This document shows, in pieces, positions 7,269 to 58,592 of a stretch of 64,000 nucleotides of DNA. Positions within the stretch are counted from its first letter, which is position 1, and each line of letters starts with the position of its first letter. Source of the stretch: Sphaerolaimus hirsutus. Lineage: Eukaryota; Nematoda; Chromadorea; Monhysterida; Sphaerolaimidae. Made by a program: the position numbers and the translations under genes. The DNA lies in contig OZ038459.1 of assembly GCA_964036195.1 (NCBI GenBank), positions 22,875,206 to 22,939,205 of the forward strand. Direction: 5' to 3'. Under the pieces are notes generated by a model. It saw only the letters and a program-made list of their open reading frames with translations. It was not told the origin of the DNA and did no database searches.

Positions 7269-7463
7269 GTGGCAGTCCCAAGCCCTGTAAAGTGTAAAGT
7301 AAAGTGTCAAATGTAAAGTCAAGTGCAAAGTAAACTGTCAATTGTCATGCAAAGTTCAGTAATAAAATCTTTTCTTTTTTGTTTTAATTGACACTTTACT
7401 TTGCATTTGACTTTACATTTGACACTTTACTTTACACTTTACAGGGCTTGGGACTGCCCCCAG
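7269..7463 (+). mobile_element. Introner-like element (GT...AG, AGTCCCA ends), young type
   Basis: Begins GTGGCAGTCCCAAGCCCTG and ends CAGGGCTTGGGACTGCCCCC + CAG. The interior repeats GTAAAGT, GTCAAAT and GCAAAGT words as an inverted pair around TTTTTTGTTTTA. Almost the same sequence is found at 33596-33821 and 35681-35904. It is not inside a recognised gene. Confidence 0.7.
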
Positions 7464-12215: not shown

Positions 12216-15200
12216 TTACATCAGGGTTTGGCGCAAAATTGCATTGACCACTTGATATGGATCTGCATTCGATGCGGGCCTTCTGTCCTCCATGTGACCC
12301 TGGAAAAACTCACTCAAATAAATATATATTTTATGATTATGCTTAATTAGCTTAATTCCAATTATGAACAATTGTTTAAGTCGCCTAAATATACCTTGTT
12401 AACACAGTAAAACAGTATTTTACTAAGTGAAAAATGCTAACATGCTTATGCTGTGGCATCACTAGTAGTCAAACATTTTTATTAGTATTGAAAATGAAAT
12501 GTTGATTACTTCAACAAAATAAACGTTTCTGCAATGACAATTTCATTTTGTAGAAAAATATAGTATTTATCAAATTTATTTACTCTAATGCTGCGATTAC
12601 GGCTCGGGCATAAAATTGACTAGGCGTAAAATTGATGTTTGGGCGTAAAATTTATTACAGGTGAATGGGTAAAGATATGGCGTTGTAATTTCAGTCAAAG
12701 AAAGTGCACATGCAGATGTTGCTTCTGTCCAAAGCTCATCAGTTTTTTTTATTGTACTATAAGTTATGAATTTTGGTGCAAATTTTTTTAATATTATGCC
12801 CTAATTTTACGCAACTTACAGCGCATAATTGAAAAAATTGTGCTAAAATTCATCACTCCCAGTACAATTAAAATAAACTCATGAGCTTTGAACACAAGAA
12901 AGGTCTGCATCTAAGCTTTCTTTGACTGAAATAACAATGTCGTATCTTTATCCATTCATCTGTAATTAATTTTACGCCCAAAATCAATTTTACGCCAGGT
13001 CTATTTTACGCCCGAGCTGTAATCGCAGCATAAAGTCTAAAGCTTATTAACAAATAAAGTCAATTTCAGACAAACCCACAAAAAACACGTCACCCCCAAA
13101 AACACACCTTTCCCGCCAGAGCCACATTTCTAGGGATCCTTATACTGACATTCCTTGCCCCGACAGCGGCGGAAAACACGTCATAAGCTGCAGTTTCGTG
13201 TCTTCCAGTCATGCGACGTTTATTGTCTTCACCTCCATTTGGATCATACACAGACATGGAGTGTTCGTGGTGTGGTCGCATTTTCTCTATTGCTGCCCAG
13301 ATGTGTCTGGGGGGTCATAGTTAAAAAAATATTGTTTTAGGGTTCTTTGATAGTGGTTGATGAAGATATTTGTGTGCCATTTCACAGACTAAATTTCTAT
13401 TTTCTAATTGTTTTTCTGATTAATTGATAATATCAGGATTGCTTACCAGTGACACCACCAGAGCCTATAGAATGTCATAAGAAATTCAAATGCCCACACA
13501 AATAATAATAATGAAATTTTACATGTCCCTTTATACACAACAACATGACATTTCAACATTTTTCACTACATTCCACAGTGTTACAGGACTAGGACCTATG
13601 GCTCTAGTCCCGAGTCCTGTAAAGTGCAATATCAAATGTCATACATATTTGTCAGTTGTTTTGCAGAGTGTCAAATTTCAGTAATAAAATATTTTGTTTT
13701 TGATTGAAATTTTACATTACATTTGACACTTTACTTTACACTTTACAGGGCTCAGAACTGCCCCCAGCTACAACTGTAAAAAGAAATGGGTGGGACAGAC
13801 ACGAAATTTTGTCTGAACCAACTCACTTGAGTCCATCTTCTCCCCTCATTGGCTCAGTGGAAAAATTTATGTGCGCACCGCTGCCATTCCAATCGCCTGA
13901 CACTGGCTGCAAAGTGATTTTTTTATTTTTGTACATGTTTCAAACTGCTCAAAATAATGACAATAATAGATTCATTTGAAAAATGCACCCAACACTGAAC
14001 ACTGCAGATCAATGACATTTTGTGCACAGAAAATGATGGTGCGAAACACAATTGCATTTGATCAATTGTGTGCAGAGGAATAGATGGTCTATGTAGTCAA
14101 TTCCACAGGTGACCTAAGTGACATAAAAAGTGAAGTAGTAAGTATATTGCTTGTCACTTGATGTACCACTTTCGATCTCACTTAACATTTTCCGTGTCAC
14201 ACATCCACTTGTGGAGTTGGCTCCTAGTTTAAGCACCTTAACCATTATCAGGTATTCTGGGACCCCCAAAAACGTCCCAAAAAACTAACCTTCACATCCA
14301 GGGTCACATCAATTCCAAACTCTTCAGCCACACGCCACAGTATAAATCTGCTCAGCCAAACTTGATCAGCCAGCTCCAACCCACTGAGTGGTCCCATCTG
14401 ATATTCCCACTGTCCCAGGAGGACCTCCGCATTGGTCCCGCCGTGTTTGAGTCCCGCATAGCGACAGGCGATCATGTGCGCATCTGCGCAGTCCCGCCCG
14501 AAGGAACGTCCCGCGCCCACGGAGCAGTAGTAGGGGCCCTGGGGGGTGGGGGGGGTATTTCAGTAAGTCTTTTTGCAACCTGGGGGCACCCCCGGACCCT
14601 GTAAGAAGCCCTGTAAAGTGTCAAATGTCATGCAAAGTGTCAAAAGTCATGGAAAATGCCCTGCAAAATGGCAACCGAGTTGCCATTTTGCAGGGCATTT
14701 TCCATGACTTTTGACACTTTGCATGACATTTGACATTTGACATAGCTTTTTACAGGGTCTGGGATTGGCACCAGAGAGGGAATGTAAGTATTCTAAATAT
14801 TTTTATGCCACTTTCTGATCCATGAAAACATTTCAAGTGAGTCAGTTATCACACTACCGTATTCCCTCGAAATACCCCCGGGGGTTTATTTTTTCAGAGT
14901 GTGAATTTTGAGGGGGGTATTTCGAGGGGGGTAATTCGAGGAAAAACAGTATCTGGAATTATACTGCATGTATTTACGATGGGGTCAACGACTCAACACC
15001 TGCCAAGCCACCATGAGAAACCCCGTGTCCCACCCTGTTACAAACGCAATTTTCCAAGAAAAAAACCCCAATTGATCACCTGTGGGGGAGGGTACCCCCC
15101 AGAGGGGAACCCCAGGGGCCTTCCATCGACTCCGAGAAGCACATATTCCTGCTCAAAGCCAAACCAAGGTTTATGCGCTTTGGTCAGTTTGTCCGCCTCT

Positions 15201-25720: not shown

Positions 25721-28378
25721 ATGACGACCGTCTACGAAACTGCTGTCACTGTGCCAAAAATTGGTGAAATTTCATTTGAAGACATCAGATCGTCACCATT
25801 CATCAAACCAATTCGCATGCGATTTTCCCACGATGGTGTCCAGAGAGCTTGGGACATGATTTTGGTGCACAATAGTGTTTGCGTGATACTTTTCGAAGTG
25901 GATACAAAAAGACTGGTTTTTGTTAGGCAATTTAGGTTGGCCTGGGCTGGATATTTGTTTTTTTGGACACCTGCCTTGGACATGTTCTTACGACGTTTCA
26001 CAGCGTTAGAATACGCTAAATTCGCTCTTTTTTGTAAAAAAAATCGGAATTTTTTGCTGGAAAAACGGTCCTGAACGATTGGACAGGTGCATAGTTTTGC
26101 GATCAGATGTCAGAATCAGATGTGAATTATATGAAAAGAGAATTACACATGTAAACGACTGCACAAATATCACCTCTAATTTTTTTGCTCAAAATCCTTT
26201 GGCACTAAAAAATATGTAACGCCGATAAGTGATAAAATTGCAAGAAGTATTAATATTTGAAAATAATCACTGGACATGCGTCACTAGCAGAGAATTGGAA
26301 ATGAAACTTTAACTGTAATTTTCTCGAAATCGATTTTTTGGACTTATCGACCTTAAAAAAGTAGGCGCTTCATTTGTTCACCACTTAATTCAACTTAAAT
26401 TATCATAACTCATTTGCAGACCTGCCGTATACGTAAACGGCGCCCCAAAAGGTGCCAATCCATCAGTGACCCAGTTAAATCAAGTTAATTGGACTGAAAC
26501 GCAAGATCCCGCAAAATCTGTTACATTGGAACTTTGTGCGGGAATTGTGGATAAAGATTGCAGTTTGCTCGAAATTGCACAGGAAGAGATAATGGAGGTA
26601 TTTTTTTCAGCGTCATTTTGTGTTTTCAGTTTGAATTTGATTGAAGTTGCAATATTTTGAGTGTAATTGTAACTGCAAAATCCCGAAAATTTTCGACAAT
26701 TTTGATAGAATTTTTTTACAAAATAATAACTCTCCTTGAATAATCCCCCCAAAGGAATGATAACAAAATAATTCTCCAGGGCACTTATTCGAGTTAATGT
26801 GGTATTTAGCATAAAAATGACGCTTCCAATCAAACTAAACTTTAATTATATTTCATAAATCCTCTGACACATTTTTTTCAGGAAACGGGTTATGAAATTC
26901 CACTGAATCGCCTAGAAAGAGTGACATCATTCCGCAGTGGAGTTGGCGTCATTGGAGATGTGCAAACTCATTTTTATGCTGAAGTTTGTTTTCTTTTTTT
27001 TGTTTGGCGGTGTAAAAAGTTTTTTCTTCAACATTTTATAAATACACATTTGAGTTTACAATAATGAATAATATTGATCGACGTCAACAGCTGACGGATA
27101 CATCATTCCCGTGAACTCAAATGCAGTTAAAAACAGATCTGTTAGCTTTGGAAATTTCGGTTGTCAACTAGAGTGCGTCAGGGACGTATCCAGGATTTTT
27201 GAGCGGGGGGGGCTGCTTGTTTACGGAGCCCGGCGAGGGGGGGCTGAGTGGCGGAATGGCGCCAGTGCCATGGCGCCATTCCGCCACTATGTAGCTAAAA
27301 TTTTAGGGGGGGGGGCTGAGCCCCCCCCCTCGCCGGCCTCCGTAAACAAGCAGCCCCCCCCGCTCAAAAATCCTGGATACGTCCCTGTTCTCACATGACA
27401 GGTATTTTTGTTTCAGCACTTGCGGCAGCATCAAATCTTGTGCAAATGCTCTCTCAGATGTTCACATAAGAGTATATGTATGTTTAATAACTACTTACAC
27501 CATGGAAACATCAATGGCACCATGGCATGGCACCTATAAATGGGGCTGGCACCTTTTCCTTACCACATCTGTCACATTTTTAAATCATTTTCTCATTTTG
27601 ATTATTGTGTGCCATTTAAATTTGTATCATCTACTTTTCAGTAGAGATGATCAGTTGGGTTTGTGATCAAATGGAAATGACTCCTAAATGCAATATGCCA
27701 AATGAGATATGCTCTGCTATACCAAAAGCAAAATATCGAAATATCAAAAATATCGAAATATCGATATCGAATATCGAGCATTTTTTAATATCGAATATCG
27801 ATATCGAGGGTCCATATCGTATCGAATATCGAGTTTCAGAAAAAAATATCGAATATCGATATCGAAAAGTCATATCGTCCAAACCCTAGATACGGCCCTG
27901 TTGTGCGTAGAGTCAATGTAATGTCGTGCGTTTGCCGTTTGCCAATTGCCTGTCTGGTCACTTTGCAATAACTTGGAAAATGACACCTGAAAGTTTTTTC
28001 TCAGGCGGAAACTCCTAAACCCTAAAATTGTTGAAATTTTCATAACCTCCTGTGAATTTCTTTCATCACACCGTGAATTTTATAAATTTTCAGGTTTATT
28101 CGAGCGAGAGAACTGGACAGGGCGGTGGAAATATCCACGAACACGAAAATATCGAAATTCAATGGATTCCCTGCTGCGAAGCTGGCAAAATTATGTTCGA
28201 TGAAAATTTGTCCAAACCTCCAGGTTTACTTTTTGGTTTGTCGTGGTTTTTTAGAAATAAGGCGCCATTGTGTTGCCGGGTAAATCGCAGCGAATTTGAA
28301 TGTAGAAAAAATTTGTTTTTTGGCCTTACTGTGGGCTTGCTTTTTGGTTTAGTTGTGTGGAAATTCGGTAGAAGATAG
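25721..28378 (+). CDS. NUDT14-like Nudix hydrolase (UDP-sugar pyrophosphatase family) with C-terminal hydrophobic tail, haplotype A
   Basis: Family members hydrolyse UDP-glucose or ADP-ribose. Exons: 25721-25935, 26420-26597, 26882-26983, 28094-28378; all phases fit, 259 residues. Blocks in order: SSPFIKPIRMRF, RAWDMILVHNSVCVILF, LVFVRQFRPAVYVNG, SVTLELCAGIVDKDC, EIAQEEIMEETGYEI (Nudix helix; the consensus Arg is Glu and the catalytic Glu pair EE remains), TSFRSGVGVIGDVQTHFYAEV, IEIQWIPC, LLFGLSWFFRNKAPL. Human NUDT14 (from memory) ends near the last block; here about 35 residues follow, ending with NLFFGLTVGLLFGLVVW (residues 238-254) then KFGRR, a typical tail-anchor layout. An in-frame ATG at 25625 exists, but 25721 is closer to where family proteins begin. 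Intron 3 carries a CAGGGACG hairpin element. It is divergent from prolyl oligopeptidase and convergent with the collagen. Confidence 0.9.
27179..27387. mobile_element. CAGGGACG hairpin element in Nudix intron 3 (haplotype A)
   Basis: CAGGGACGTATCCAGGATTT...G-run...GGCGCCATTCC...C-run...and the inverse, forming an almost complete hairpin of about 209 bp. Absent from haplotype B. Confidence 0.75.
27730..27885. repeat. ATATCG-word stretch
   Basis: Runs of AAATATCG and ATATCGATATCG, ending CCAAACCCTAG. The right end resembles the AACCCT end of the GGGATC elements; no matching left end is visible. It is in Nudix intron 3 of haplotype A only. Confidence 0.55.
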
Positions 28379-28860
28379 TTTTCTATGTTGTAAACATGTT
28401 TAGAAGTTCATTTATTTATATTTTTATATTTCAACTTTATCAATCTGTATGTATATGCGTTTCTTACATTTGATCTGGGCATGAAAAACAACAATTATTG
28501 AAAATACTTCGCACGAAAACGTCCGTCACTTTTATAAAAAAATCAACAAAAAGTATTGCACTATATTCTCCGAGTATTGCACTTTCTCTGAATAACTCGT
28601 ACATCTGCATGTGCAAAGTCTGAAGGAAGCATTTTCACATCTGCGATTTCCGTATTATTGCTTTTTACATGTACAACTTTTTACCAGCATGTACAAAAAA
28701 AGTTTAGCAAACAAACTTGTTCTCAAAATTTACATGTTTTTGCAGAACAAACTTACTGCACATGCAAATCTACCACTCAAAATCACACCTCAATCCGTAT
28801 TACATCTCGTCAACTCAAATCACATCTCGTCAACTCAAATCACATCTGTCAACTCAAAAT

Positions 28861-31821
28861 CTAATAGCCCGGGGGCATCCTCGGTGGTGGGCAGTGCTTG
28901 CAGTTGCCAGGTTCACCCTTATCGCCGGGGGGTCCGGGGGGTCCCCATTTGCCATCCTCTCCTGGCTCACCATCATCTCCTGGTTCGCCCTATGTTTGTA
29001 AGGGGGTTATTTGGGGGGGGGGTTGGCACAGTGCCAGTGTGAGGTATTTAGGGCTTTTTGAGTGTCTTGCTGGCATGTATACTTGCTGAAAGTTAAAATT
29101 TCTAAATTTGGTAGATTTGTGAAAAAACGCCTTTGAGTTTGCTGGATTATTTATCATTTTGAGCTCGATAAACAGTACATAGTTGACGGATTCCTCATTC
29201 TGGTAAACTCGTATTTTCTTAAAGCAGATTTACCGACTTTGAAAATTTCGCTGATAACTCTTGTAGCCTAGTGTAGCGCAACACAAAGTATAAAGCTTGC
29301 CAATATTTATAATTTTGGTTCGCCAAAATCTTGCCACCCACACTTTACACCACTGAAATTTGGGACACTTGGACATTGGATCTCATTTTGGTAAACTCAA
29401 ATGTGTTCAAAACTGAATTATGAGTTTCCGAAATTTCGGTGGTGTACCAGTGTGCGCAACACCAAAATGTCAAAATAATCTCACCAGATGTCACTTTAAA
29501 AAATCAAAAAACCACCCAAGTAAAACCAAAATCCCAAAACCCAAAAACACAACAACCAAAGTCCCCAAAACTCTCTCACCATAGGCCCAGACATGCCCTT
29601 CTTGCCATCCTTGCCATTCTCGCCCTGCTCACCCATTGGTCCCTTCTCGCCCTTAGGTCCCGCCTCCCCAGTCTGTCCCGGCTCACCAACAACGACCACG
29701 ACCCTGCCGGGCTCCCCTTGGGGTCCGGGGGGTCCCTCCCTGCCGGGCCTGCCCGGCATGCCCGCGGGACCGGGCATGCCCTTGTGACCCTTCTTGCCGT
29801 TTTTGCCCAGATCCCCCGCGGGACCCTTGGGACCTTTGGGACCTTTCTGGCCGCAGTTTCCTGGGGGGTTGAGGGGGGTGAATGGATTGCGTTAATTTGT
29901 AATTTGCGCTAGTATTTTTTTATCTGTTTTTGAGTTTCTAATGTTGAGCCCAGTGAGGTTTTCATACTGTTTTCAGTTACCTATTCCAAAGGACTATTCG
30001 AAATATTTGTTATTTTGTGGTGATGTAAAGACAATTATCACTTTTTCAACAATTCCTCGCTTAGCATCCTATTTTCTGTAGCTTTACAGCCATATTTGGA
30101 AGAAAAAAACAAGTGTCGTCACCCGCACCCCCCTCCCAAGTGCCCCCCCCCAAACAAAATCCCCCCTCACCCATGGGTCCAGGTGGGCCAGGGGGGCAGA
30201 TCACGCATGGCTCCTTGTTCTGGTCGGCCTTGATCACGTTGCCGTCCTTGCCGGGCATGCCGTCCTTGCCCGGCTCGCCGTCCTGCCCGTCATAACCGTC
30301 ATCTCCGGGCTCGCCGGCGGGCCCGGCGGCACCCTGCTGGCACGTGCAGCCTGGGAGGGGTGGGTAGGGTAGGTTGGAGGGTGTAGGGTGTAGGTTGATA
30401 GTTGGTAGGTAGGGTGGGATTTTCGGGATCGGGGTTGGTTTTTTGAATTTTTAGGATCGGGATTGCGAATTTCTAATTTCGGGATCGTCGTTGAGATTTT
30501 GGAGTCGGCATCGGGACCATAATATGCTGGTATTTTTCGGGATTCGCATCCCGTTTGAACCCTAGGTAGGTTGGCAGATTAGCATACCAAATATTTCGGG
30601 GGATTTATGTTTTTTTAAGAGATGTGAAAATGTAAAACTAATTTGTGAAGGGACGTGTAAAATGTCAAGTAAATTTGTCAAGTGTCATGTAAATTTTTAA
30701 TGTGAAATACCCGGTAAAATATTTTATATAGCATTTGATATCTGACAAATTTGTCTACATTGCGTGTACTTGACTGATACATGATGTCGATATTTCTAGT
30801 ATATTTAAAAATTCAAATAATAAACTTTAATCGTAGAAAAAAACACAAACACCACCCTCAAATACCCCCCCCCCCCTCCCTTCCAAAAACAACCCCCACT
30901 CACAAGTATCCTGCGTGCTGGGAGCTGGTTTGCCCGCTGGCAACGCGCCAGTCGGGGGGTAGTCGGGCGGGGGCGTGTCGTAGCCCGACGGGGGCTGGGT
31001 GGCGCCGTAGTTGTCGTTGTCGTCGGGCACCCACTGCCCGAAGGACCAGGCGCGCTTTTGGCGCTTGCCCGACGCGGATTGGGCCGCTTGAAGTTCGATC
31101 CACATGTCGCGCGAGGCCGACTGGGGGGGGGGTTGGGGGTGATGGGTTTGAAAAGAAGAGAAAGGGTTTTTGTGAGGTGTTATACGGTCACAGGTACTCT
31201 CGCACCCTGTAAAGTTATAGTCAGGTGTAAAATGTCAGTTAAAATGGTAAGGTTTTTTTACTTAACTTTCAGCATTTTAGATGACAATTGACAAATTTGT
31301 ATGACATTTTAGACTACAGGGTTCGGGACTGGCATCTGAACTGTGGTTGATGTTTTGAATACACCCGGACTTGCATAGATGGTTGCGGAGAGCAATTTTT
31401 ATCACTTGACATGACCATTTGTGCAATTAGACAAGTGAACAAAAGTGGTATGTTTTAAGTCAAGTGAAATGTAGCTTGATGGTGACAAGTCAATCTACAA
31501 ATGTATTTAGTTTGACTTGCCCTTTGCCTTGCCACTTTTCTGGTATTTAAATCATTTTCATATCTAACCGCGCCCCAAAACCTCAACCTACCCACCCTAC
31601 CCCAAACCCCCCCCCCCTCAAACAACCCCCCCACAAACTTGGCAATAGTCCAACTCAGCCATCATATGCGTCTGCAGTGCCTGCACGTAGGTGTAGATCA
31701 TGGGTAGGCACACCACTGAACCTACAATAGCCACGGTGCCTATCGCAACTGCCGCAAAGGCTACCCGACGTGCTGCGGCGACCTTTTCTTCCTCCATGTT
31801 CATGTTTTTGTAGGCTGACAT
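28861..31821 (-). CDS. Nematode cuticle collagen, five exons, haplotype A
   Basis: Secreted structural collagen of the cuticle. Exons (minus): 31821-31639, 31120-30904, 30350-30171, 29860-29580, 28989-28861; 990 nt, 329 residues, stop TAG. Residues 1-61 form the cuticle-collagen N domain with a hydrophobic signal-anchor (VAFAAVAIGTVAIVGSVVCL). Residues 81-84 are RQKR, the subtilisin/furin-type processing site usual in this family. A Pro/Tyr/Asp-rich spacer leads to CCTCQQG, then Gly-X-Y blocks broken by NVIKADQNKEPCVICP and RVVVVV, then a terminal CKHC pair: Cys clusters flank the triple-helical blocks as in other cuticle collagens. The sequence can start four to seven codons further up only with non-ATG codons, so ATG 31821 is chosen. 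Several introns begin with G-runs and end with C-runs. A TATA box lies 90 bp upstream. Confidence 0.96.
31194..31335. mobile_element. Introner-like relative in collagen intron 1, haplotype A
   Basis: Runs from CAG/GTACTCTCGCACCCTGTA to CTACAGGGTTCGGGACTGGC. Interior GTAAAATGTC and TGACATTTTA words. Also present in haplotype B (about 50,788-50,933), so it predates the split of the two copies. Confidence 0.55.
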
Positions 31822-33344
31822 GTGGGCCTTGAATTTGGACACAAATGAATTTGGGTCCTGGTGGGTGTTTTCCGAATGGATGGGAAATTGGTTTTGAATT
31901 GTGAGGGGGCGCCTTTTTATATTGGGTGATTTTGGGGGAGTTTTGTTGTAATGTTCGCTGGAAACTGGAATTTTGGGTTGGATGGAGTTTTGCGAGGGAT
32001 TTTACAATGTTGCGACTGCTACAGTAATCGTTTGAATAGGGCGCGCGCCTGATATTTGATGCCTTAAGACTTCATGGCGCCTGTTTTGCTGGTAAAATAA
32101 ATACCCAAGTTAGATACGGAAATGGAATGTGTATTTTGACGTATTGTTTTAGAAGTCGAGATTATTATGTGCGTGGAAAGTGTAAAATTTTGCCACTGGC
32201 CATATTTCGCTACCAATTTCGATGCTAAAAACTCTATGGTAATTACATCAATTTATCATCAATAAGAGAAAACACCATTTCGGCTTTTACACACACTTAT
32301 AATCCCAAACTAAACCTTTTACAGATATTTTACCAATATTCATACATTTATATTGAATGTCGATCAGTGTCCATCTATTCGCTAAAATACGGTATTCAAT
32401 TTTACGCGCATGATAATTGAAAACCGGTCAGTGCACATCGTTTGAGATGTGAATTGTGAGTGACCACTGGTCACTCACATTAAATTTATACACATGCGCT
32501 GTAATTTTAACTGTATTTGTGCGTAGTCATGTGATCAAATGGGGGTCAATCCAATTTGAAGTATTTTCATTGTGTTGGCGAATATACATAATGTGCTCTT
32601 TGGGTGAATGTGTTTAAAATACTACCTATATTATTTTCCTTAGTTTGTGGAAAGTTAAGTTTATTTGGTGCGGTGAAGTTTGTAGCAAAAGCTAATGTAG
32701 AAATACAAATAGTAAATGAATACGAACGAAAAAAAGCATTAAATCGTTATATAAAATTAGCAAATGAAAGTAGAAATTATAGCATTATCGTGCCCGAAAA
32801 TTATCGAAAAGTTTGAACGTAGCTTTCATAAAATATATATTATTTTTTTAGTATACATTTATCGGATATCGGGTATAGAACGATTTTTTGTATGGAACAT
32901 CGGCATCGAAAATCTGCGTCAAAAAATATCAAACAGCGGAAGCAATGCATACTTTAAAATATTTGCCCGTCATCAAATTTTTGTCAGAAATATCAAATAT
33001 TGGCCACCCGACGTATACAAAACTGGAATGACTTATTGCTGAGAGATTGTGACATGATGATGATAAATATTTTTATAAAAATATGTTTTCGTATAAAAAA
33101 ATAAAAATTTGGAATGGTTGGATAGGATAACAAATATGACTCAAATTCTGCCATACTGCCCCCATTTCTTTAATACGTATTTTAATAAATTTTGTTCATA
33201 CCATAATTTTGAGCAAACCAAACCACGTCACATTTTTGGATCAGTGCCAACTTATTCGATCATTCCATTCCGGATAAATTTACAGCAATGAGTCACTCGA
33301 GTTGACAAAAAAACATTGATATTTACAAATCAAAATGTTTTACA
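31822..33344. other. Collagen upstream region, no gene
   Basis: Conserved between the haplotypes apart from insertions (haplotype B gains about 1.1 kb at 51740-52836). A near-perfect palindrome GTGAGTGACCACTGGTCACT lies at 32,457-32,479. Short open frames near 32.6-33.0 kb are not kept in the other copy and are not called as genes. Confidence 0.5.
31911..31921 (-). promoter_or_regulatory. TATA box of the cuticle collagen, haplotype A
   Basis: TATAAAAAGGC on the minus strand, 90 bp upstream of the collagen ATG at 31821. The same box is found at the matching place in the other haplotype. TATA boxes are common before cuticle collagen genes; the transcription start has not been seen directly. 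Confidence 0.6.
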
Positions 33345-33844
33345 CCGTATTTACTCGAATAATTCCCCCGTAGAATTATTTTTTGTCAGACTTTTAATGG
33401 GAGAACTAAATATTCACGGGTGAATTTTTTCCATCGAAATTTTCAAGCATTTAACAAAATATCCTTTATTGGCCAAAAAACATGCAATTTTTGTTCAAAT
33501 TCGACACAACAAATTTACAAAAAGCCTATTTGAAGGGTAATTTGGGGAGGATTATTTTTCCTCACTCCTCTAACAAGGGGATTTGTTCAATTCAGGTGGG
33601 AATCCCAAGCCCTGTAAAGTGTAAAGTAAAGTGTCAAATGTAAAGTCAAATGCAAAGTCAAATGTCAAATGTAAAGTCAAATGCAAAGTAAACTGTCAAT
33701 TGCCATGCAAAGTTCAGTAAAAGGAACTTTTTTGTTTTGTTTTGATTGACACTTTACTTTGCATTTGACTTTACATTTGACACTTTACTTAACACTTTAC
33801 AGGGCTTGGGACTGCCCCCAGGTGAATTATTCAAGCAAATACGG
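33345..33844. mobile_element. CCGTATTT element, word AATAATTCCCCC, at the globin stop, split by an introner-like insertion
   Basis: CCGTATTTACTCGAATAATT at the left and AATTATTCAAGCAAATACGG at the right. The uninterrupted form is 54108-54370 in haplotype B. Its right edge is 7-8 bp from the globin TGA in both haplotypes, so it supplies the 3' untranslated region. Confidence 0.75.
33596..33821 (+). mobile_element. Introner-like element, haplotype A insertion with CAGGTG on both sides
   Basis: 226 bp, begins GTGGGAATCCCAAGCCCTGT, ends ACAGGGCTTGGGACTGCCCC + CAG. The left junction reads TTCAGGTGGG and the right CCCAGGTGAA, while haplotype B has the unoccupied site TTCAGGTGTA at 54341-54350. So CAGGTG is duplicated and the inserted piece is a GT...AG unit in the plus direction. 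Words inside: GTAAAGT, GTCAAAT, GCAAAGT in inverted arms. Confidence 0.8.
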
Positions 33845-33851
33845 TACACAC

Positions 33852-36800
33852 TCAACAAAACCTGTCCACTTGTCTATCTGAATTATCATGCACTTTCAGC
33901 GCAAGAATGCCCATATGCATCTCAGACTTTTCAGTATCATAAAAGTTGCGTCTGGCCATTTGCGGTGTACTAAAGTTGTGCGTTACCGTTTTTCTTGGAA
34001 TAGTTTCCGTTCGTATGTGATATTCTAAGGATGTTATGCTGCCATTGTGTGTGCGATAGTTAGTTGATTTTGTCCTGCGTGAAGTGATGTGATAAGTGGT
34101 GATTTTGGTGTATTTAAGTGAGGTTCTAAAAAATTGAGAGAATTTAATTTTTTTTATATAAGAAAATATAACAAATATAATTACCGTATTTCTTCTAATA
34201 GAACGGCGCCGTTCTATTTTTTCATCAACTTTTTACCTGCTGTTCTATTGGAGGTGCCGTTCTATTAGAAGAAATACGGTATATTTATATTTTCTCCAGC
34301 TCTATCCAGAGAGATTTAATTATATATATATTTTCTGAGAATTAATTATTGCAAAAATCGCATTTATATTTATTTGTGAAAAATAATTATTAAATCTATA
34401 AAAACACTTTTCTCGGTGTAAAATGTAAAAAATGCACCTCGGATAAGATCTCTGCGATATAGATGATATGCTTGCAACCTCAAAACTGTCTGTTAAACTT
34501 TCATTTTCAGTAATTGTATGTTTTATATGGGTCACTGATGAACTTCGTTTTCTGATTACTTCCCCTGTCTCTGCGCCTGTGAATGAGATGGATTTAATTA
34601 TTCAAAAAACTCAACGGACTTGATACTTTGAAATCGCTGTTATTTATGCCTCATGTTGGAAGTGTGCCAATGATAATAAAAGCATGTAATTTTGACATCT
34701 TTGCATTGCATGACATGACATCTGAGATTTTACAGGGTATTTTACATGAAATTTTACATTTTACATGACATTTGGATTTGACATGTTATAAGCTATTTTA
34801 CATTAAGTTTTACAATTAGCATGACATCTGAGATTTTACAGCGTATTTTACATGAAATTTTACATTTTACATGACATTTGGATTTGACATTTTATAAGCT
34901 ATTTTACATGAAGTTTTACATTTAGCATGACATTTGACATTTTACAGGGTATTTTACATGAAATTTTACATTTTACATGACAATTGACTCTTTTACAGTG
35001 TAGTCTGCAGCAGGCTCTTTATTCATAGGCACCCACCTTTCTGCAATCGCTTTTCTTTGACCCCATCAAAATAGCCAATCCTCATTTGACCCACTATAAA
35101 AATAACCACGCATCTCCAAACTTTCATAAGTTCCTTAGTGCTTCTTCTGGAGGCGCCCATCCATTCCAGCGCCGTATTTGTGAGCGCTTCGGCGAAAACG
35201 TTCCAAAAATTGATTTTGAAACCTTTGCCCTGGATAGGGGGGGGGGGGTGCTTTTTGGGTTGTGCGAATTGAAATGGGGGTTGGGGAAATTGAGGATTAT
35301 ATGTACCGTATTTCTTCTAATAAAAAGAACGGAATACCTCCAATAGAACGGCAAGTTTTGGCACTTTTTACAGCCACGAAAAGAATAGAACGGCAGTCTC
35401 CAATAGAACGGCACCTCCAGTAGAACGGCAGGTAAAAAGTTGATGAAAAAATAGAACGGCCCCGTTCTATTAGAAGAAATACGGTATGTATTATGTAGTG
35501 ATGGAGTAGCGCTATGGCGCTGGCGCCAAATCACTATGGCGTCATTTTTGCATGATCGTTTTGAGATATGCCTTGGGCTCTTGGTGCTTGGCATCATGCC
35601 ATCCTTTTGGCGGCTTTTAAAAAAGTATCAGTGAAGTTATGGAATGGCGCCATGGCGTTGGCGCTATTTGTGGGTACCAGGTGGCAGTCCCAACCCCTGT
35701 AAAGTGTAAAGTAAAGTGTCAAATGTAAAGTCAAATGCAAAGTGAAGTGTCAATTGTAAAGTCCAGTGCAAAGTAAAGTGTCAATTGTCATGCAAATTTC
35801 AGTAATAAAATCTTTTCTTTTTTGTTTTAATTGACACTTTACTTTGCATTTGACTTTACATTTGACACTTTACTTTACACTTTACAGGGCTTGGGACTGC
35901 CCCCTGGTGGCGCCGCGCCATGGCGCCCTTTTTCTATAGCGCCCTTGGCGACTGGCGCACTGTCCTCAATTGGCCAAATAATGGCGTCAACATGGTTTAG
36001 TGTGAATTTAGAAAAAGACCGTAAAAATGACAAACTGTTTGTTTACGACCCACCAAAAAAAGATTCTCAAAAATCACCTGAAAGTCCACATGCCGCTTTC
36101 CCAATTGCCTCAAAAACGGCACTACCTTTCCAACATCGGTGATATCGTGCAAAATTTTGTCCAAAGTTTTCTGGGGTAGTCCCAGACCCTCTAAAATGCC
36201 CATGCAAATGTAAAATGTCATGCAAAATGTCTTAATTCCTGTAAAAATGTCCTGGAAAATGGCAACATGTGTTTGCCCTTTTTCAGGGCATTTTACATGA
36301 CTTGAGACACTTCTCATGACATTTAACATTTTACAGGGCATTTTACATGGTCTGGGACTGGCACCTGAAAAGCCACCATGTGCCTCTGAAATTTTACATT
36401 CGCCTTAATTTCTGACACGGTCATTCTGTTGAAGCCAAATTCCCCCTTGATTTGGGGGTCCATTTTGAAAATGTGCAAAAAAACTTTGACCCCCACGCTG
36501 TCTGTGGGACCCCTCATTGAAGTGGCTTGGTTCCAGGAATGTAGTAGTATTTGGGCCTGGCGTTCAGTCACTGGAGGGTGGATAATTCTGTAGGGGTTTT
36601 GGGAGGGGATGATAGATGGGTGTTTTTGAATTTGAAGAAGTTTTTTAATTTTTTGAAGGTTTTTTAGGTAATGGTTTTTAAGCATTCGTTTGCATAGATT
36701 TTGTGAAAATTGAGCTTTTCGCGAGATTGTTATTTTTAAAGTCATACAATGTCATACGAAAGTCATACAAAGTCATACGAAAGTCATACAAAATACAAAA

Positions 36801-41491: not shown

Positions 41492-42341
41492 AGATCTCGC
41501 CTTCCGATTTTAACATACACTCGTCTGAAAGCAAAGCATGCGCCCGAATATTATCATTATCATCTTATGATGTAAACAATAAACATTTGTAGACATCAAC
41601 AAATGTTAAAAGCATCATCACACTTCACAGAAGCAATGAAAATTAAGTGTCACGATATAAAATAAACCATTGAATCGCATACGAAAGTTGAAATTTCATA
41701 ATTAACCTAAATTTAGTTGAATTTAGTTGACATGAATTTTGATGTCAACTAGCGTGTCCACGTGTGTCCTTTCGCACATTTTTACATTTATATCGTACAC
41801 TCCCATTGTACATTCCTAATAGCATTGAAAAATGGGTAATATCTATTAAGAAGTCATAAATACCTAAATGTAATTCAAGAAAATTTCTCGAAAATAAAAT
41901 ATACCTAATTTTATCTATCTGAAAATATGCACAGAAAATATACGAAAATATGAATGAGATATGTTTATATTTTCTTCTTGCAAATATAATTAGGTAAATT
42001 TTTATTTAACCCTTTAACTTTAAACCTTTAACCTTTCTGTAGAACATATAACTAAATATACCTAAGTTTTTCAAAATATTGCCTGGTATTTAAAAAAATC
42101 TCCCAAGATATTCTTCAGTGCTAATTTCTACCGTAAATACTTTACCATTACCAATGGTAGGTGTTTTCCTACCACGCCATGACTTCATCATATCAGCTAA
42201 TATCACCCACACAGTTTTGAAATGACACGAGTTTCATTCAATTTAACACATTGATTGCATGCAAGGGGAGAACAGACTATGGGTATACTCGGCAGACAAC
42301 ACACTCAGTATGGAAACCTACCATAACCCATCTGAATAATG
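41492..42341. other. No gene or repeat recognised
   Basis: AT-rich sequence up to the gap; no convincing frame, hairpin or word repeat. Confidence 0.4.
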
Positions 42342-42541
42342 NNNNNNNNNNNNNNNNNNNNNNNNNNNNNNNNNNNNNNNNNNNNNNNNNNNNNNNNNNN
42401 NNNNNNNNNNNNNNNNNNNNNNNNNNNNNNNNNNNNNNNNNNNNNNNNNNNNNNNNNNNNNNNNNNNNNNNNNNNNNNNNNNNNNNNNNNNNNNNNNNNN
42501 NNNNNNNNNNNNNNNNNNNNNNNNNNNNNNNNNNNNNNNNN
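42342..42541. other. Assembly gap, 200 N
   Basis: Placeholder gap. Its right edge starts inside an AGCTATCTATC-word repeat, the same family that ends contig 1. Confidence 0.99.
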
Positions 42542-43610
42542 GAGCGATTTTTGAGAAAATTTGCCCCAATTTTCGCTTAAAAATCGTTAATTTTCATACA
42601 TTTTATAGTTTTTCACCTTCAAAATTGCGGCTTTCACCTATACACATGTTTTATTTAGCCTATTTTAGCTACTTTTAACCTGTTTTTAGCGATTTTTTTC
42701 CCGTTTCTGCCTACTATGCACTGAAAAGACTATATAATTTGCCTCCGCGAGTCCCCCCCCCCCCAAGCCCCCCAGAAGAATTTCAGCTATCTATCCCTCC
42801 GGAGGAGCGATTTGCTATCTATCTATAGTTTTTTTCAACTCGATGTTTTTTTTTAAAGCTGCCAGATATGACCTTGTGTCAACATATATAGGTATATCAG
42901 ACAGTGGCAATACTCTGTGATGTTATATATGACCATATAATGGCTGTTGAGCCATGGGATAGCATTATAAGTGGTGATTTGTGTCAAAAATATCCATTTT
43001 TTGTCAATATTTTCGTATATCGCCTTATAGTCGAATGTTCGTGACTTCAGGTAAAGTTTGGCACGGAATAGTGATGAAACAAGGCAAAAGTTATTTTTGT
43101 TTGTACTCAAAATAATACGCGTTCTCACTCGCGTACTACATAAATACATTTACGTTTACTCCAGAACAAAATACCAGTTCTCATTTACTCGTGTACTTTC
43201 TGAAAGTATGCGAGTACAGAAAACGTATATGTTTGCTTTTAAACTTTTTTAAATACCAGTATTATTATAACAACTCTGATTGCTGCATTCTACCATGAAA
43301 TGATAAGCTGTGATATGCTCCTGTGGTATGAAATATCCAACCAATGTATTTACACATGTAAACTTGGGTATATTGTTTTTCTGTTGTTCAGGCGATTATT
43401 ACCCGATACCCGGTTATTTTATTACTCGGAACCGAAATTTTGATCATTTTAGAACCGAAAGAACCGAACCGGAACCGAGTTTAAGAACCGAACCGAGAAC
43501 CGGAACCGAAAATTTTCAGGAACCGAGAACCGATACCCGTACCGAAATCTTTTGGAACCGAGAACCGGAACCGAAAATTTTGAAATTCCCAACCCTACCC
43601 CTGGCACTGA
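42542..43610. repeat. Repeat-filled intron/contig start
   Basis: 42,542-42,830 is the right part of an AGCTATCTATC-word element. 43,070-43,275 has CGAGTA/AAACGTA words and ends ACAACTCTG. 43,428-43,590 repeats GAACCGA and ends CCCAACCCTA, like the AGGGTT-ended group. All lie 3' of prolyl oligopeptidase exon 4 on the minus strand, so probably within its intron 4. Confidence 0.6.
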
Positions 43611-43647: not shown

Positions 43648-45459
43648 CTTGCCAGTAACCCAATCACTGCCTCTCTCCGAAATTCCATAAGCCATAATAG
43701 AACCATCTTTTGAGAATTTCTTCACTCTGATGGAAGTCGTTCCATCATCCGACAATTTGTTCGGATCCAAAAATACGCGGCCTTGAGATTCAGGGGACTC
43801 TTGAATGTAAATCACACTGAAATGTCGGAGTGTTTGGAGAAATATAAGTTTGAAATAGTTGAACATGAATTTGAGTTTGATTGACAGGCGGAAATTTCTA
43901 TTCAGGACCTTTTTATTCAAAGTTTCGATTTTATTTTGAGATTTTGATTCAAAAATTTAAAAAATGTATTTTAAAAATGATGGTCAACATTCCGGCGATC
44001 CACAATAGAAATGGCAGGGTTTTCTTCAAAAAATTTAGAACCAGAAACCTTGATATAATGGTGATAATCTATTCCGACGATCAAAATCGCAAGTGCGCAC
44101 ATCCAAGTATAAAACTCACTACTCATTTACCTTTGATTTTGCAATCCACTGTTGTAACTGTAAAAATAGTAATCGCCGTGCTTTGAAGTACAGCCATACT
44201 TCGGGTAATCCCACAGTTCGGTCAACCTAAAACCGAGAAAGTCAAAATAAAAATCTATTTGTGCCAAGACAACAATATTTAAATTCTGACCGACGTTTTA
44301 CCAAGTTTCGTCCGTAATTGGCACTGTTCCAAAAAAGGCACACTGACTTCGTTCAATTTGGCCACAAAATCAGTGGTCACTTTTGCATCGGGATCTTCCA
44401 GCGCGCGGTAGGGATCTGGCACCTGGGTATCCAAATATTTTTAAACACTTTTACTTTTTATAGATTTACATAGATATTGAGTATTAAATTTAAGTCAAGT
44501 AATAATAAGTGATTTTTTATAATAAAAGTGATTGGCGCTACGCACACTGAAGCCGAAATATTCGGCATACGCACGTTTTTGACAAATGCCGAATTAAATG
44601 CTGAATAGAAAAAAACTTGCTGAACTCAAATCGTCCGTACTCTTGAAAATTAGGCGGTTTGTCAATTCAGCATGTATTTCAGCATTCAAAAGATGCGTAC
44701 ACTTTTTCATGCGGAAACCATTCGGCAAAATCAAATGAAATGTTGAATGCTGATAACGCTCAAATTTGTCCGAATATCGTGCGCACGTTTTCAAAATTCA
44801 ATATGGCAGCCCCTAAAATGCCGAATTTAAAACGTCCGAACGGAATTTTTCAATTTGGATTCGGCAGATGAAAATGTGCGTATGCCGAATATTTCGGCTT
44901 CAGTGTGCGTAGCGCCATTATTACAATGGATCATGGCACAAAATTCCAATAATAAGTTCCTGGTAGAAGGAAAATAGCTTTCTATATGCTGCCATGCAGA
45001 GATGCAAAGTTTTGCCACTAACATGACACAAAATGCTATAGCAAATTGAATGGGAACTCAAACACTTGCACATGCAAAAAAATGCAAAATACGTGGTGAA
45101 TAACCACTAAAAACTTTCGTTCACGTATTTTGAAGTGATTTCACATTTATTCTTTTAAATTATTTCCAACACATCAAGTAGCAAATCAGTGACTAAAAGC
45201 GCAAAACAACCGAAAAACTAGCCTTGGTTCCATGATAATCATCCACAATGGTTTCATCCCTCGGCGCCAGCGGGTATGTCTTCGGATCAATCGAAACTGG
45301 CATCTTGTTTGACCCAAAATCAAATGTCCACTCAGAATTTGGCCCACTTTTCTCGTTTTGAGACAATTTTTGGACTGCCAAAGGTAACTGATGCAAGCGG
45401 CGACACGGCTGGATGCAGGCAGCGGTTACTGCTAATTTTAGTGCGAAATTGAGACGCAT
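43648..45459 (-). CDS. Prolyl oligopeptidase, exons 1-4 (haplotype in contig 4)
   Basis: This is the 5' end of the gene whose 3' part lies at 75-4482. Exons (minus): 45459-45223, 44422-44302, 44226-44131, 43816-43648. Signatures: [83 protein letters not shown]. The first ATG (45459) adds about 52 residues, basic and with few acidic residues at the start, before the Met (MPVSIDPK) that matches the usual cytosolic start. The extension could be a mitochondrial leader, but the inner Met may be the true start. Exon 1 ends AAG followed by GC rather than GT in both haplotypes, so intron 1 appears to be GC-AG. The obvious exon 2/exon 3 junction (44302/44226) is off by one base, so either an acceptor differs or there is a sequence error. 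Exon 4 joins exon 5 at 4482 in phase. The gene is divergent from the Nudix gene, 518 bp start to start. Confidence 0.92.
44534..44916. mobile_element. GGCGCTACGCACACTG inverted-repeat element in prolyl oligopeptidase intron 1 (haplotype B)
   Basis: GGCGCTACGCACACTGAAGC and the exact inverse; about 40 bp perfect ends, with words CATTCGGC, GTGCGTA, TGCCGAAT inside. Flanked by ATT on both sides; haplotype A has the unoccupied site GTGATTATTACA, consistent with a 3 bp target duplication. Confidence 0.85.
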
Positions 45460-45977
45460 GAATCCATGTATTTTAACTGGAATGAGTGACCTCGGAGTTT
45501 AATTTTTGCAATTTATTTTTTTGAATTGCGCTGAACAGTGGGTTCGTTTTGCTTCTCGCTCCGCCTATTTTCAAATTGTCTCCTTTAAAAGGGATCGCCG
45601 ACATATTGTGAACTTGGCATTTTTACAATGATATCTAATTTTGTATTTGGATACGATTACGTATTGCACTAACGAGAGTAAAAGACACAGGATTTCTGTC
45701 CGAGTCACTGAAAATGTCCGCAGAATGTGATAATACCACCGGATATGGTCGCTAATGGCCGCAACACATTGTCATGCCGCCCCGGTTCACCATCGTCAAC
45801 TGCGGTATACAAACGGCATATCAATACGGGTTGTTGGACAGGTGCCAAGTTCACATAATGTCGGGATTTCTTCCATTATAAGTGAACGTATGTAAAACGA
45901 CCTTTTCGCGTGGCTTATGCGAAAACGTCCCACTTGGCACTGATCCAACAGTATTTTCGAGAAAAAGAAAATTCAAC
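45460..45977. promoter_or_regulatory. Bidirectional intergenic region, haplotype B
   Basis: Same length (518 bp) and nearly the same sequence as 25203-25720. The even length shows that no element has inserted here in either haplotype. Confidence 0.5.
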
Positions 45978-54377: not shown

Positions 54378-57300
54378 TCACCAAAACCTGTCCACTTGTC
54401 TATCTGAATTATCATGCACTTTCAGCGCAAGAATGCCCATATGCATCTCAGACTTTTCAGTATCATAAAAGTTGCGTCTGGCCATTTGCGGTGTACTAAA
54501 GTTGTGCGTTACCGTTTTTCTCGGAATAGTTTCCGTTCTTATGTGATATTCTAAGGATGTTATGCTGCCATTGTGAGTGCGATAGTTAGTAGATTTTGTC
54601 CTGCGTGAAGTGATGTGATGAGTGGTGATCATTTTGGTGTATTTAGGTGATTTGAGGTAAAAAATTTGAGAGAATTTTATTTTTTAAATATAAGAAAATA
54701 TAACAAATATAATTACCGTATTTCTTCTAATAGAACGGCGCCGTTCTATTTTTTCATCAACTTTTTTTACCTGCTGTTCTATTGGAGGTGCCGTTCTATT
54801 CTTTTCGTGTGTGTAAAAAAGTGCCAAAACCTGCCGTTCTATTGGAGGTGCCGTTCTATTAGAAGAAATACGGTATATTTATATTTTCTCCAGCTCTATC
54901 CAGAGAGATTTAATTATATATATTTTATGAGAATAAATAATTGCAAAAATCGCATTTATATTTATTTGTGAAAAATAATTATTAAATCTATAAAAACACT
55001 TTTCTCGTTGTAAAATGTAAAAAATGCACCTCGGATAAGATTTCTGCGATATAGATGATATGCTTGCAACCTCAAAACTGTCTGTTAAACTTTCATTTTC
55101 AGTAATTGTATGTTTTATATGCGTCACTGATGAACTTCGTTTTCTGATTACTTCCCCTGTCTCTGCGCCTGTGAATGAGATGGATTTAATTATTTAAAAA
55201 CATCAATGAACTTGATACTTTGCAATCGCAGTTATTTATGCCTCATGTTGGAAGTGTGCCAATGATAATTAAAGCATGTAATTTTGCCTCCCTTGCCTGG
55301 GTTATTTTTCCCCAGCTCGCTCGGTAAAATGCCAAATTTTAAATTATTTTTACTGGTCGTTTGACATTACACAGGGCATTTTAGCTGACGTTTGAAACTT
55401 TGCATGACATCTGAGATTTTACAGGGTATTTTACATGAAATTTTACATTTTACATGACATTTGGATTTGACATTTTATAAGCTATTTTACATTAAGTTTT
55501 ACATTTAGCATGACATTTGACATTTTACAGGGTATTTTACATGAACTTTTACATTTTGCATTACAATTGACTCTCTCACAGTGTACCTACTCTGCAGGCT
55601 CCCACAGCAAAAAATGGGGGTGTGATGCGTCGGGAAGCGTGCTGGATGCGCGTGAAGCAGCCTCTGTGAAACCACTTCCACACGCTTCAACACGCTTCAC
55701 GATATTTTTGGTGAAGTGTCTTCCACACACTTCACCTAGCTTCACGGTAGCCAAAATTTCGTGAAGCGCGCTTCCCGATGCTGACGCAGTGAAGACACTT
55801 CACAAACATTGTGCAGCATCGTTGACGCACGTCTGTGATGTGAAGTGTCTTCACATTCTCATTCGTGAAGCGCCGGGAAGCGCCGACCAGCTTCGTGAAG
55901 CGTCGGGAAGTGTTGCCGTGAAGGCACTTCAAGACGCTTCACGATGCATCAAACCCCCATTTTTTGCTCTGTCCTTATTCATAGGCACCCACCTTTTTGC
56001 AGCCGTTTCTCTTTGACCCCATCAAAATAGCCGATCCTCATTTGACCCACTATAAAAATAACCACGCATCTCCAAACTTTCATAAGTTCCTTTGTGCTCC
56101 TTCTGGAGGCGCCCATCCATTCCAGCGCCGTATTTGTGAGCGCTTCGGCGAAAACGTTCCAAAAATTGATTTTGAAACCTTTGCCCTGGATAGGGGGGGG
56201 GGTGCTTTTTGGGTTTTGCGAATTGAAATGTGGGTTGGGGAAATTGAGGATTACTATATGTAAATTATGCGGATATGTGTATTACCGTATTTCCTCGAAA
56301 TACCCCCCCCCCTCGAAATACCCCCCCTCGAAATACCCCCCCTCGAAATACCCCCCCTCGAAATACCCCCCTCGAAATACCCCCCCTCGAAATACCCCCC
56401 TCGAAATACCCCCCCTCGAAATACCCCCCTCAAAATGGACACTATGAAATAATTACCCACCCCCTCGAAACCCCCCCCCCTCGAAACACCCCCCCCAAAA
56501 AAAAAACAAAAATTGAGTGTACAGAGAACGTACATAACAAAACTGCGGTTTGTGATTCGGGCAATACAAAACACACGTTAAAAACAATGAATTGTTACGT
56601 TAGAACATTGTTACACACTTAAATAAGTCAATAGACTCATATATAGCGGTTATTGTTGCATTTTTGAAGTCTGCGTACGTTACAGACGACAATTTAGTAC
56701 TGGAATTTCAAAAAAATTCTGGCGAAATAATAAGCCCCCCCCCCTCGTTTAACCCCCCCCCCCCCTCAAAATTCTCACTCTGAAACAATCACCCCCGGGT
56801 TTTTTTTCTCGAGGAAATACGGTAAATGGATTATGTATTATGTGATGGAGTAGCGCTATGGCGCTGGCGCCAAATCACCATGGCTTCATTTTTGCATGAT
56901 CGTTTTGAGATATGCCTTGGGCCCTTGGTGCTTGGCACCATGCCATCCTTTTGGCGGCTTTTTAAAACAGTATCAGTGAAGTTATGGAATGGCGCCATTT
57001 GTGGGCATCACGTGGCGCCGCGCCATGGCGCCCTTTTTCTATGGCGACTGGCGCACTGTCCTCAATTGTCCAAATAATGGCGTCAACATGGTTTAGTGTC
57101 AATTTTGAAAAAGACCAAAATGACAAAATGTTTGTTTCCGACCCACCAAAAAAAGATCCACAAAAATCACCTGAAAGTCCACATGCCGCTTTCCCAATTG
57201 CCTCAAAAACGGCACTACCTTTCCAACATCAGTGATATCGTGCAAAATTTTGTCCAAAGTTTTCTGGGGGCAGTCCCAGACCCTCTAAAATGCCCATACA

Positions 57301-58592
57301 AATGTAAAATGTCATGCAGTGTCTAAAGTCATGTAAAATCCCCTCGAAAATCGCAAATGTACGTTTGCCATTTTCTAAGGCATTTACATGACTTTAGACA
57401 GTTCTCATGACATTTAACATTTTACAGGACATTTCACATGTTCTGGGACTGGCACCTGAAAAGCCACCATGTGCCTCTGAAATTTTACATTCGCCTTAAT
57501 TTCTGACACAGTCATTCTGTTGAAACCAAATTCCCCCTTGATTTGGGGGTCCATTTTGAAAATGTGCAAAAAAACTTTGACCCCCACGCTGTCTGTGGGA
57601 CCCCTCATTGAGGTGGCTTGGTTCCAGGAATGTAGTAGTATTTGGGCCTGGCGTTCAGTCACTGGAGGGTGGATTCTGTGGGGTGGGGGGGGGAATTTGG
57701 AGGGGAGGGGGTAAATGGGTGTGTCTTAAAAGTGTTTTGAGTGGTTTTTAATGCACTTGTTTGTTTGCATCGGTGTCGTGAGAAGTGAGCTTTCCGTGAG
57801 AGGATATTTATTTTTATTTGGTGTTTAGAAAATTTATTTGTATTTAGAGAAGTGCATTTTAATTGTACAGTCAACACAACAAAGAAAATCTATAGTGGCT
57901 TGTGATGCAGCAGTGAAACATTGCGAAGTTTAATCACACCAACACAAAAGCTTTCACAGCAAAAAATGGGCTCGTGAAGCGCATGGAAGCGGCACACTTC
58001 CACACGCTTCAGCACGCTTCCACCAACATCACAAGATTCTCGGTGAAGTGTCTTCCACACGCTTCACCTAACTTCACCATGCGCTTCACGCGCATCCAAG
58101 CATGCGGAAGACACTTCACAATGCTGACGCTTCCACACGCTTCACCAACATATTAGTTTGCATGCCAGAGTGTTACTAAAAAGCGTGAAGTGTCTTCACG
58201 CAGATTTTCGTGATGTGCGTTGAAGCGTTAGAGTGCTTGGTGAAGTGTCGGGAAGTGTTGGCTTGAAGTCACTTCACGACGCTTCACCGCGCATCCACAC
58301 ACCCATTTTTTGCTGTGTTTCGCTACTTCTCGAATCAGTGCATTCCATAAAATGTGTGGGTATCGAGTTCGGGTCGGGTTGGGTTGAGTTTGTAACCCTA
58401 GCAAGGGGGTGTACATTTCACACCACAACATAACTGTGAAGTAAAAGCCCATTTTGAAAAAAAACAGTGCGGCCCCTTCAATTTCAAACGACGTTTTTCA
58501 ACAACATTTTTTCCTATAAAGCCAAAGAAAAAGAAGGCATAAAATAACCACCCAAAAACAAACATTTTTCTCAATTTTTTTGTTCCCTTCAT
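54378..58592 (-). CDS. Globin with long C-terminal extension, haplotype B
   Basis: Allelic copy of 33852-37461. Exons (minus): 58592-58564, 57675-57456, 57263-57171, 56185-55993, 55168-55030, 54600-54378; 897 nt, 298 residues. One codon is missing at the start of exon 2 (IIHPP to IHPP) and there are a few substitutions (SISQRSYP to SISQKSYP, final Cys to Trp). The intron 57264-57455 is again exactly one AGTCCCA-ended element, so that insertion predates the split of the two haplotypes. Other introns differ: a CACAGCAAAAA element (55,603-55,972) and a TCGAAATACCCCC element (56,285-56,822) are specific to this copy, and haplotype A has others instead. Confidence 0.83.
54716..54873. mobile_element. 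CCGTATTT element, word AATAGAACGGC (long form), haplotype B
   Basis: Same insertion as 34184-34279 with TA on both sides, but with one extra block (GTGCCAAAACCTGCCG plus another TTCTATTGGAGGTGCCG). Confidence 0.8.
55603..55972. mobile_element. CACAGCAAAAA element in globin intron (haplotype B)
   Basis: CACAGCAAAAAATGGGGGTG at the left and CCCATTTTTTGCTCTG at the right; interior GTGAAGCG/CTTCCACACGCTTC words. Absent from haplotype A (continuous at about 35,010-35,025). Confidence 0.75.
56285..56822. mobile_element. CCGTATTT element with nine direct TCGAAATACCCCC words (haplotype B)
   Basis: CCGTATTTCCTCGAAATACC at the left, GAGGAAATACGG at the right, TA on both sides. The left end carries about nine direct copies of CTCGAAATACCCCC (56,297-56,428), the longest run in the window. 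Confidence 0.8.
57264..57455 (-). mobile_element. Introner-like element that is exactly a globin intron, haplotype B
   Basis: 192 bp, GTGCCAGTCCCAGAACATGT to GAGGGTCTGGGACTGCCCCC + AG on the minus strand, bounded exactly by exon ends 57456 and 57263. Confidence 0.8.
57955..58317. mobile_element. CACAGCAAAAA element, third copy (haplotype B)
   Basis: CACAGCAAAAAATGGGCTCG at the left, CCCATTTTTTGCTGTG at the right, same interior words as 39451-39857. It lies in the first globin intron. Confidence 0.75.

Follow-up and report, generated by a model that had tools for sequence, protein, structure and literature searches.

The window (the whole stretch of 64,000 nucleotides that was analysed) carries on its minus strand a globin gene, one intron of which consists of a single copy of a short inverted-repeat element (Table 1). 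Read on that strand, the exon closes with GTGGCTTTTCAG, the element extends from GTGCCAGTCCCAGACC (36364) to GGTCTGGGACTACCCCAG (36171), and AAAACTTTGG opens the next exon, which gives intron borders of the form CAG^GTGCCAGTCCC...GGGACTACCCCAG^AAA (^ marks an exon–intron border throughout). Joining the two exons yields a globin (Pfam Globin, 1.8e-9, residues 29–97 of 100, with the junction after residue 69), and a comparison of the product with a large protein set returned nine candidates, none of which was a homologue at E <= 0.001. In the fold of the intron RNA a single long hairpin is formed, with -92.2 kcal/mol compared with -43.9 +/- 4.2 kcal/mol for 200 shuffled sequences (z -11.6). The earlier note on this DNA had proposed that the intron is exactly one inverted-repeat element, and our analysis confirmed this, with a fold-back element of ~190 bp, for both copies of the gene in the window.

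The second globin gene copy lies ~21 kb away, has the same intron, and belongs to a direct duplication of ~20 kb within a single contig (24.9–36.6 kb, 24918–36576, vs. 45.2–57.7 kb, 45175–57667), the ungapped blocks of which are 91–99% identical (20 of the 27 families listed). These copies had been taken for the two haplotypes. Since both of them sit on one contig, we dropped haplotypes as the sole reading and describe the block as a segmental duplication; haplotypes wrongly joined in the assembly could still account for it. The same note had given one start and one end of the element for both intron copies. The element does span the intron in both, but its ends are not identical: copy 1 ends with ACTACCCCAG, and copy 2 starts with GTGCCAGTCCCAGAACATG and ends with ACTGCCCCCAG. 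Besides globin, the duplication carries a cuticle collagen gene and, as judged by eye, a Nudix-like hydrolase gene. Runs of N fall within open reading frames at 21303–21694 and 42251–42580, and the window holds 600 N in total.

Further copies of the element and of its relatives are present in the window (Table 1). The relatives at 7269, 33596 and 35681 have, as had been claimed, the same asymmetric ends as the globin element, and they are candidate introns at most. Those at 33596 and 35681 were found in one copy of the duplication only and both are non-exonic; where the 33596 relative is absent, the corresponding site is ATTCAGGTGTATTATTC and contains CAG just once. Diverged repeat units of the type TGTCAAGTGATAAA occupy positions 22540–24000 and loosely resemble the interior of the element. 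It is possible that units of this type represent the origin or the fate of its internal sequence.

Table 1 Globin exons, globin introns and copies of the element in the window.
Feature	Position	Strand	Remarks
Globin exon 5' of the intron, VTERQ...HMVAFQ	36365..36570	-	5' limit predicted from sequence
Globin intron, one element copy	36171..36364	-	194 nt, phase 0; preceding exon ends CAG, intron ends CAG (second target copy)
Globin exon 3' of the intron, KTLDK...HVDFQ	36078..36170	-	–
Likely next globin exon, GKGFKINFWNVF...	35124..35229	-	Limits by eye
Same globin intron, second duplication copy	57264..57455	-	192 nt
Relative of another subfamily, in the following globin intron	35681..35906	+	CAG left, CTG right; second duplication copy empty near 57010
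Relative	33596..33821	+	CAG left, CAG right; empty site near 54345 in second duplication copy
Relative	7269..7463	+	CTG left, CAG right
Full-length copy, subfamily of the globin intron	14580..14771	-	CTG left, CAG right; not assigned to coding context

A genome-wide family and its target site

The genome assembly comprises 348 Mb in 762 contigs, with the window on contig C15; the nematode cuticle collagen N-domain has 56 matches in it, all above the cut-off, and 0 matches in 14 control genomes, which marks the host as a nematode. When the intron was used as the query, the best 40 of 2,821 candidate places were 82–100% identical to it (better strand). The 19-base 5' end of the element, CAGGTGCCAGTCCCAGACC, has 3,898 matches in the genome at <=1 mismatch (1,965 + 1,933), 722 of which (340 + 382) are the exact CTG version of that end, and both figures count ends across several subfamilies, not intact or proven introns. 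Chance likeness of the ends was dropped as an explanation because control matches were 0 (0 + 0) for the 5' end, whose control was its reversed sequence, for the CTG version, and for the CTG/CTG pattern described below.

We examined 66 loci in detail, namely 38 best-matching loci, which were scored places outside the window, and 28 of 30 unselected loci, for which exact end matches were taken in their order along the genome, blind to genes, until 30 had been collected (L047–L076; L050 and L065 are without a right end). The consensus of 34 copies (the 38 best-matching loci minus L014, L016, L037 and L041) is ~190 bp long and near-palindromic, and the copies diverge from it by 6.9% on average (2.6–12.2%). 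Its arms differ mainly at the extreme ends, where the left one has GTGCC and the right one GGGGC (both read inward). Copies are usually arranged as exon-C[A/T]G^GTGCCAGTCCCAGACC...GGTCTGGGACTGCCCC-C[A/T]G^exon. The element is short, has terminal inverted repeats and a target site duplication, and is without coding capacity (stops in all three sense frames in 60 of 66 copies), which together are the marks of a miniature inverted-repeat transposable element (MITE).

The copies that share the 5' end (L047–L076) are ~142 to >330 bp long, and because of this range we consider that several subfamilies share the same ends. A sister family has the ends GTGCCAGTTCCG (or CCA)...AACTGGCCCC[AT]G between CAG or CTG flanks (L027:3705, L063:429, L068:2790). 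In some copies a few bases are added or altered in front of the AG of the right end (L021, CCCCCGTAG; L061, CCCCCTCAG; L075, CCCCCACAG; L027, CCCCTAG; L011, CCCGCCCCCCAG), and the fit to the protein needs the AG of the altered end in L021 (GDI), L027 (GRK2) and L075 (kinase-like). L024 has GT at neither end and, on the opposite strand, would make a GC-AG intron, but a downstream frame in the sense direction resembles a nuclear receptor by eye.

The 3-bp CWG is duplicated at the target. In a set of 91 deduplicated copies, a few rows of which are doubtful or count one copy twice (L015, L054), the left and right triplets were identical in 49, compared with a permutation mean of 33.5 and a maximum of 43. 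Borders were then tabulated for 56 copies (the 66 minus L014, L016, L037, L041, L047, L054, L059, L066, L067 and L072; the CTG row of L067 probably reflects a boundary misplaced by our script). In these, the W position agreed between left and right in 0.82 of the copies (expected 0.63; the duplication is often imperfect here), left position -4 was C in 31, and right position +1 was G in 34. Taken together, the agreement at W and the flanking C and G indicate CCWGG as the best reading of the target, with a cut that duplicates CWG. CAT/CAT copies exist as well (L043 and, with one C fewer, L016), and together with the CTG/CTG copies they rule out the terminal CAG as a part of the element. The asymmetry of the ends had been ascribed to a GT on one side of the element and a CAG on the other; the GT is indeed carried by the element, but the CAG is the second copy of the 3-bp target duplication.

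We propose that this near-perfect palindrome of ~190 bp inserts at the palindromic CCWGG and duplicates its central CWG. The ends of the element differ at a few bases only, and the difference puts GT right after the left CWG, making the left junction CAG^GT or CTG^GT; the right junction is the second CWG which, if it is CAG, would supply the 3' AG and restore the exon exactly in any codon phase. The left copy of the duplication would then stay behind as the CAG of the exon and the right copy would act as the AG of the intron, while the 5' GT is the element's own; insertions at CTG leave TG at the 3' border. The copies were presumably moved by the transposase of a cognate autonomous element, and the hairpin in the RNA may help to pair the splice sites. 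Considering that the target is like the proto-splice site CAG^G, the preference for this target could turn into an advantage in splicing.

Copies in coding sequence

Removing the copy restored conserved proteins, gapless across the junction, in an alpha-7 nAChR (1.9e-27), FACT SPT16 (6.7e-29), GRK2 (1.7e-26, PDB search) and a cytoplasmic dynein heavy chain (9.8e-43). The conserved genes that were checked have the same end motifs at the two borders, exact to the base. Genes with two to three copies were seen at L013, L019, L035 and L056, and a FAT4-like cadherin, interrupted at LDQ^NDNAPQF, is an example of a gene with more than one copy.

Among 35 joined products, which were picked by eye for good frames, 16 gave a Pfam match that runs through the junction. 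The matched families were Peptidase_M24 (SPT16), Neur_chan_LBD, BTB, Aa_trans, Glyco_transf_92, Oscp1, PAN_1, Pkinase, Peptidase_M14, GDI, DHC_N1, ZP-N, COMM_domain and a second Peptidase_M14, with Oscp1 and Neur_chan_LBD matched once more through the junction of another copy that lies in each of these genes. The alignments place 91 residues on 92 profile positions for GDI (3.6e-42) and 42 on 42 for Oscp1 (4.4e-17). Four of the 16 matches contain extra residues relative to the profile (L035, Peptidase_M14, twice, 17 and 26; L075, Pkinase, 13; L064, PAN_1, 8), and these therefore demonstrate a common frame more than an exact join. The other 19 of the 35 products had no Pfam match or a one-sided one, and they include GRK2, which was caught by the PDB search; a VGAT-like product had no PDB sequence match but did match Pfam Aa_trans. 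Antisense joins at ten loci, in one frame each, gave a Pfam match in 0 of 10.

Frame and orientation were also evaluated with a codon model, for which 10 loci served as the training set and the other 56 of the 66 as the test set, with the near-duplicates L058/L059 and L071/L072 kept. The best frame was the same on both sides of the element in 22 of 28 unselected copies (expected 9.3, p 1.2e-6) and, among the held-out best-matching copies, in 14 of 28 (expected 9.3, p 0.05); contiguous positions at the same loci, used as a control, agreed in 38% of 1,315. Sense orientation prevails, the sense strand scoring above the antisense strand in 41 of the 56. A simpler test of open frames against swapped flanks, which has little power in flanks this rich in GC, gave 32 vs. 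31.6 (60 nt) and 25 vs. 18.7 (120 nt) for the 38 best copies and 16 vs. 12.6 (120 nt) for the 28 unselected ones. Not all copies are genic: several of the 30 unselected loci are without a clear coding flank, and an acceptable right end was absent in five of the 30 (L047, L050, L054, L065 and L066).

Similar elements are thus found at the intron borders of many unrelated genes, inserted in exons whose protein is restored when the element is taken out, as is expected of introners. The suggestion that the globin intron belongs to an introner family is supported by our results, since the ends of many copies across the genome coincide with predicted splice junctions and conserved proteins are recovered in frame once the flanks are joined. 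We are therefore confident, to judge from the genomic sequence, that the family is very probably an introner, i.e., a non-autonomous fold-back MITE that would create spliceosomal introns on landing in exons, and its exonic copies are likely to be spliced at the borders of the element.

Two other origins were considered. Copies that lie within non-coding DNA or other introns, such as the one at 35681 in the window, would be expected of an ordinary MITE that often landed in old introns and whose match to exon borders came about by coincidence or by deletion of the surrounding intron. Old introns would, however, leave extra flanking sequence, whereas the borders in the conserved genes match to the base; with both element ends sitting exactly at exon borders, insertion into old introns was dropped as a general rule, and we regard this origin as scarcely credible. 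The elements could also have spread as RNA, by reverse splicing into other transcripts followed by a return to DNA, and an insertion that resembles the proto-splice site CAG^G and ends that fall on splice sites would agree with such a route. The long inverted repeat and the 3-bp duplication at a palindromic target that includes CTG and CAT sites fit DNA transposition instead, as do the non-genic copies and the empty site with its single CAG. Spread by RNA alone was dropped for these reasons, and we consider an RNA route very improbable. An introner that moved as a DNA transposon is the interpretation we retain.

Copies flanked by CTG

The end pairs of the 91 deduplicated copies were CAG/CAG in 39, CTG/CTG in 9, CTG/CAG in 7, CAG/CTG in 4 and others in 32, and the left and right ends were associated (p 3.7e-4). 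A right CAG at left-CTG sites (7/16) was more frequent than a right CTG at left-CAG sites (4/43; p 0.006), in a sample in which 30 loci had been found via the CAG pattern, some copies are non-exonic and a few rows are doubtful. This excess of right CAG at left-CTG sites fits selection for AG. Genome-wide, 183 full-length CTG/CTG copies of the subfamily were counted (85 + 98; control 0 + 0), exonic and non-exonic ones pooled. Conserved coding sequence holds at least four CTG/CTG copies whose junction is spanned by a Pfam match, namely L019 (nAChR), L031 (BTB), L033 (the VGAT-like gene) and L056 (OSCP1).

It is possible, with somewhat less than even chances in our view, that hundreds of such transposon-made introns ending in TG are spliced, that GT-TG introns become GT-AG introns by a T-to-A change in the right duplication only, through drift or selection, and that the hairpin perhaps helps. 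A reading to which we would give close to even chances is that the exonic CTG/CTG copies are spliced at a nearby AG instead of at TG, with a few codons gained or lost, or else that they are damaged alleles of the host gene. All six CTG/CTG copies examined have an in-frame AG within 30 nt of the border, use of which would add 6 to 10 residues or remove 3 to 10, and published introners sometimes add codons, according to the survey by Gozashti et al. 2022 (PMC9860276). Given these frame-keeping AGs in six of six copies, exact GT-TG splicing is treated here as a hypothesis. Against the use of a nearby AG, the changes would hit conserved stretches, namely WFPFD of the nAChR Cys-loop and MDKLYDLMTMA of OSCP1, which splicing at GT-TG would spare.

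TG has been described as an alternative 3' splice site of U2 introns and verified in 36 human genes (PMC2374985). The acceptor would likewise be TG in the nematode CTG/CTG copies, but it is an alternative one in the human genes, whereas here it is possibly the sole acceptor of many new introns. The CTG class is in this respect a natural experiment in the making of a 3' splice site; if GT-TG splicing were true, the series from GT-TG to GT-AG would be a visible stepwise record of a new intron gaining a proper 3' splice site.

Comparison with known elements and introners

PIF/Harbinger-type MITEs have a 3-bp duplication within a palindromic target and terminal inverted repeats with a G-rich start, and the known ones use TWA. 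The nematode element is like them in its 3-bp duplication, its palindromic target and the G-rich start of its terminal inverted repeats, but its duplication is CWG and departs from the TWA rule. With regard to introners, the elements that Huff and co-workers reportedly described in 2016 from Micromonas and Aureococcus are said to be MITE-like and to obtain a splice site from their target duplications; they are algal, and their targets and ends are reportedly unlike those of the nematode element.

Mass gain of introns through introners is documented, and the transposon described here points to a large source of new introns in an animal. Across animals and land plants, the survey of Gozashti et al. 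2022 (PMC9860276) found introners in no more than two groups, both of them animals, and it gives 5 to more than 2,000 introner copies per family and genome, and the main text of that paper holds no word beginning with "nematod". A survey of intron gain and loss in nematodes (PMC9169325) cites introners as a known source of introns, and none is reported in nematodes in the part of it available to us. In the open-access literature, mostly titles and the openings of abstracts, we found no report of introners in nematodes, and they may be described elsewhere. If one end motif is present in thousands of copies in a nematode, and many of these sit in conserved genes within exons, this would be a rare case among animals and possibly a large one. 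Its mechanism is also unusually readable, with a palindromic target resembling CAG^G, one splice site brought in by the element and the other arising as a copy of target sequence.

The recruitment of splice sites from target duplications is itself established for introners, for example in Chrysochromulina sp. (PMC9860276). The Chrysochromulina introners likewise have the 5' site on the element and the 3' site from the duplication, many copies, and signatures of a DNA transposon; they differ in having 4 bp duplications and no terminal inverted repeats, whereas the nematode element duplicates the 3 bp CWG and is almost fully palindromic. The introner elements of Amoebophrya (PMC7789003) are similar in that an inverted-repeat hairpin joins the exon borders, with direct repeats of 3–5 nt at the borders and many non-canonical borders. 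Amoebophrya is, however, a dinoflagellate, and its elements mostly have AG-A(N) borders and are without a family-specific repeat motif, in contrast to the single shared end motif of the nematode family and its GT-AG, or possibly GT-TG, borders.
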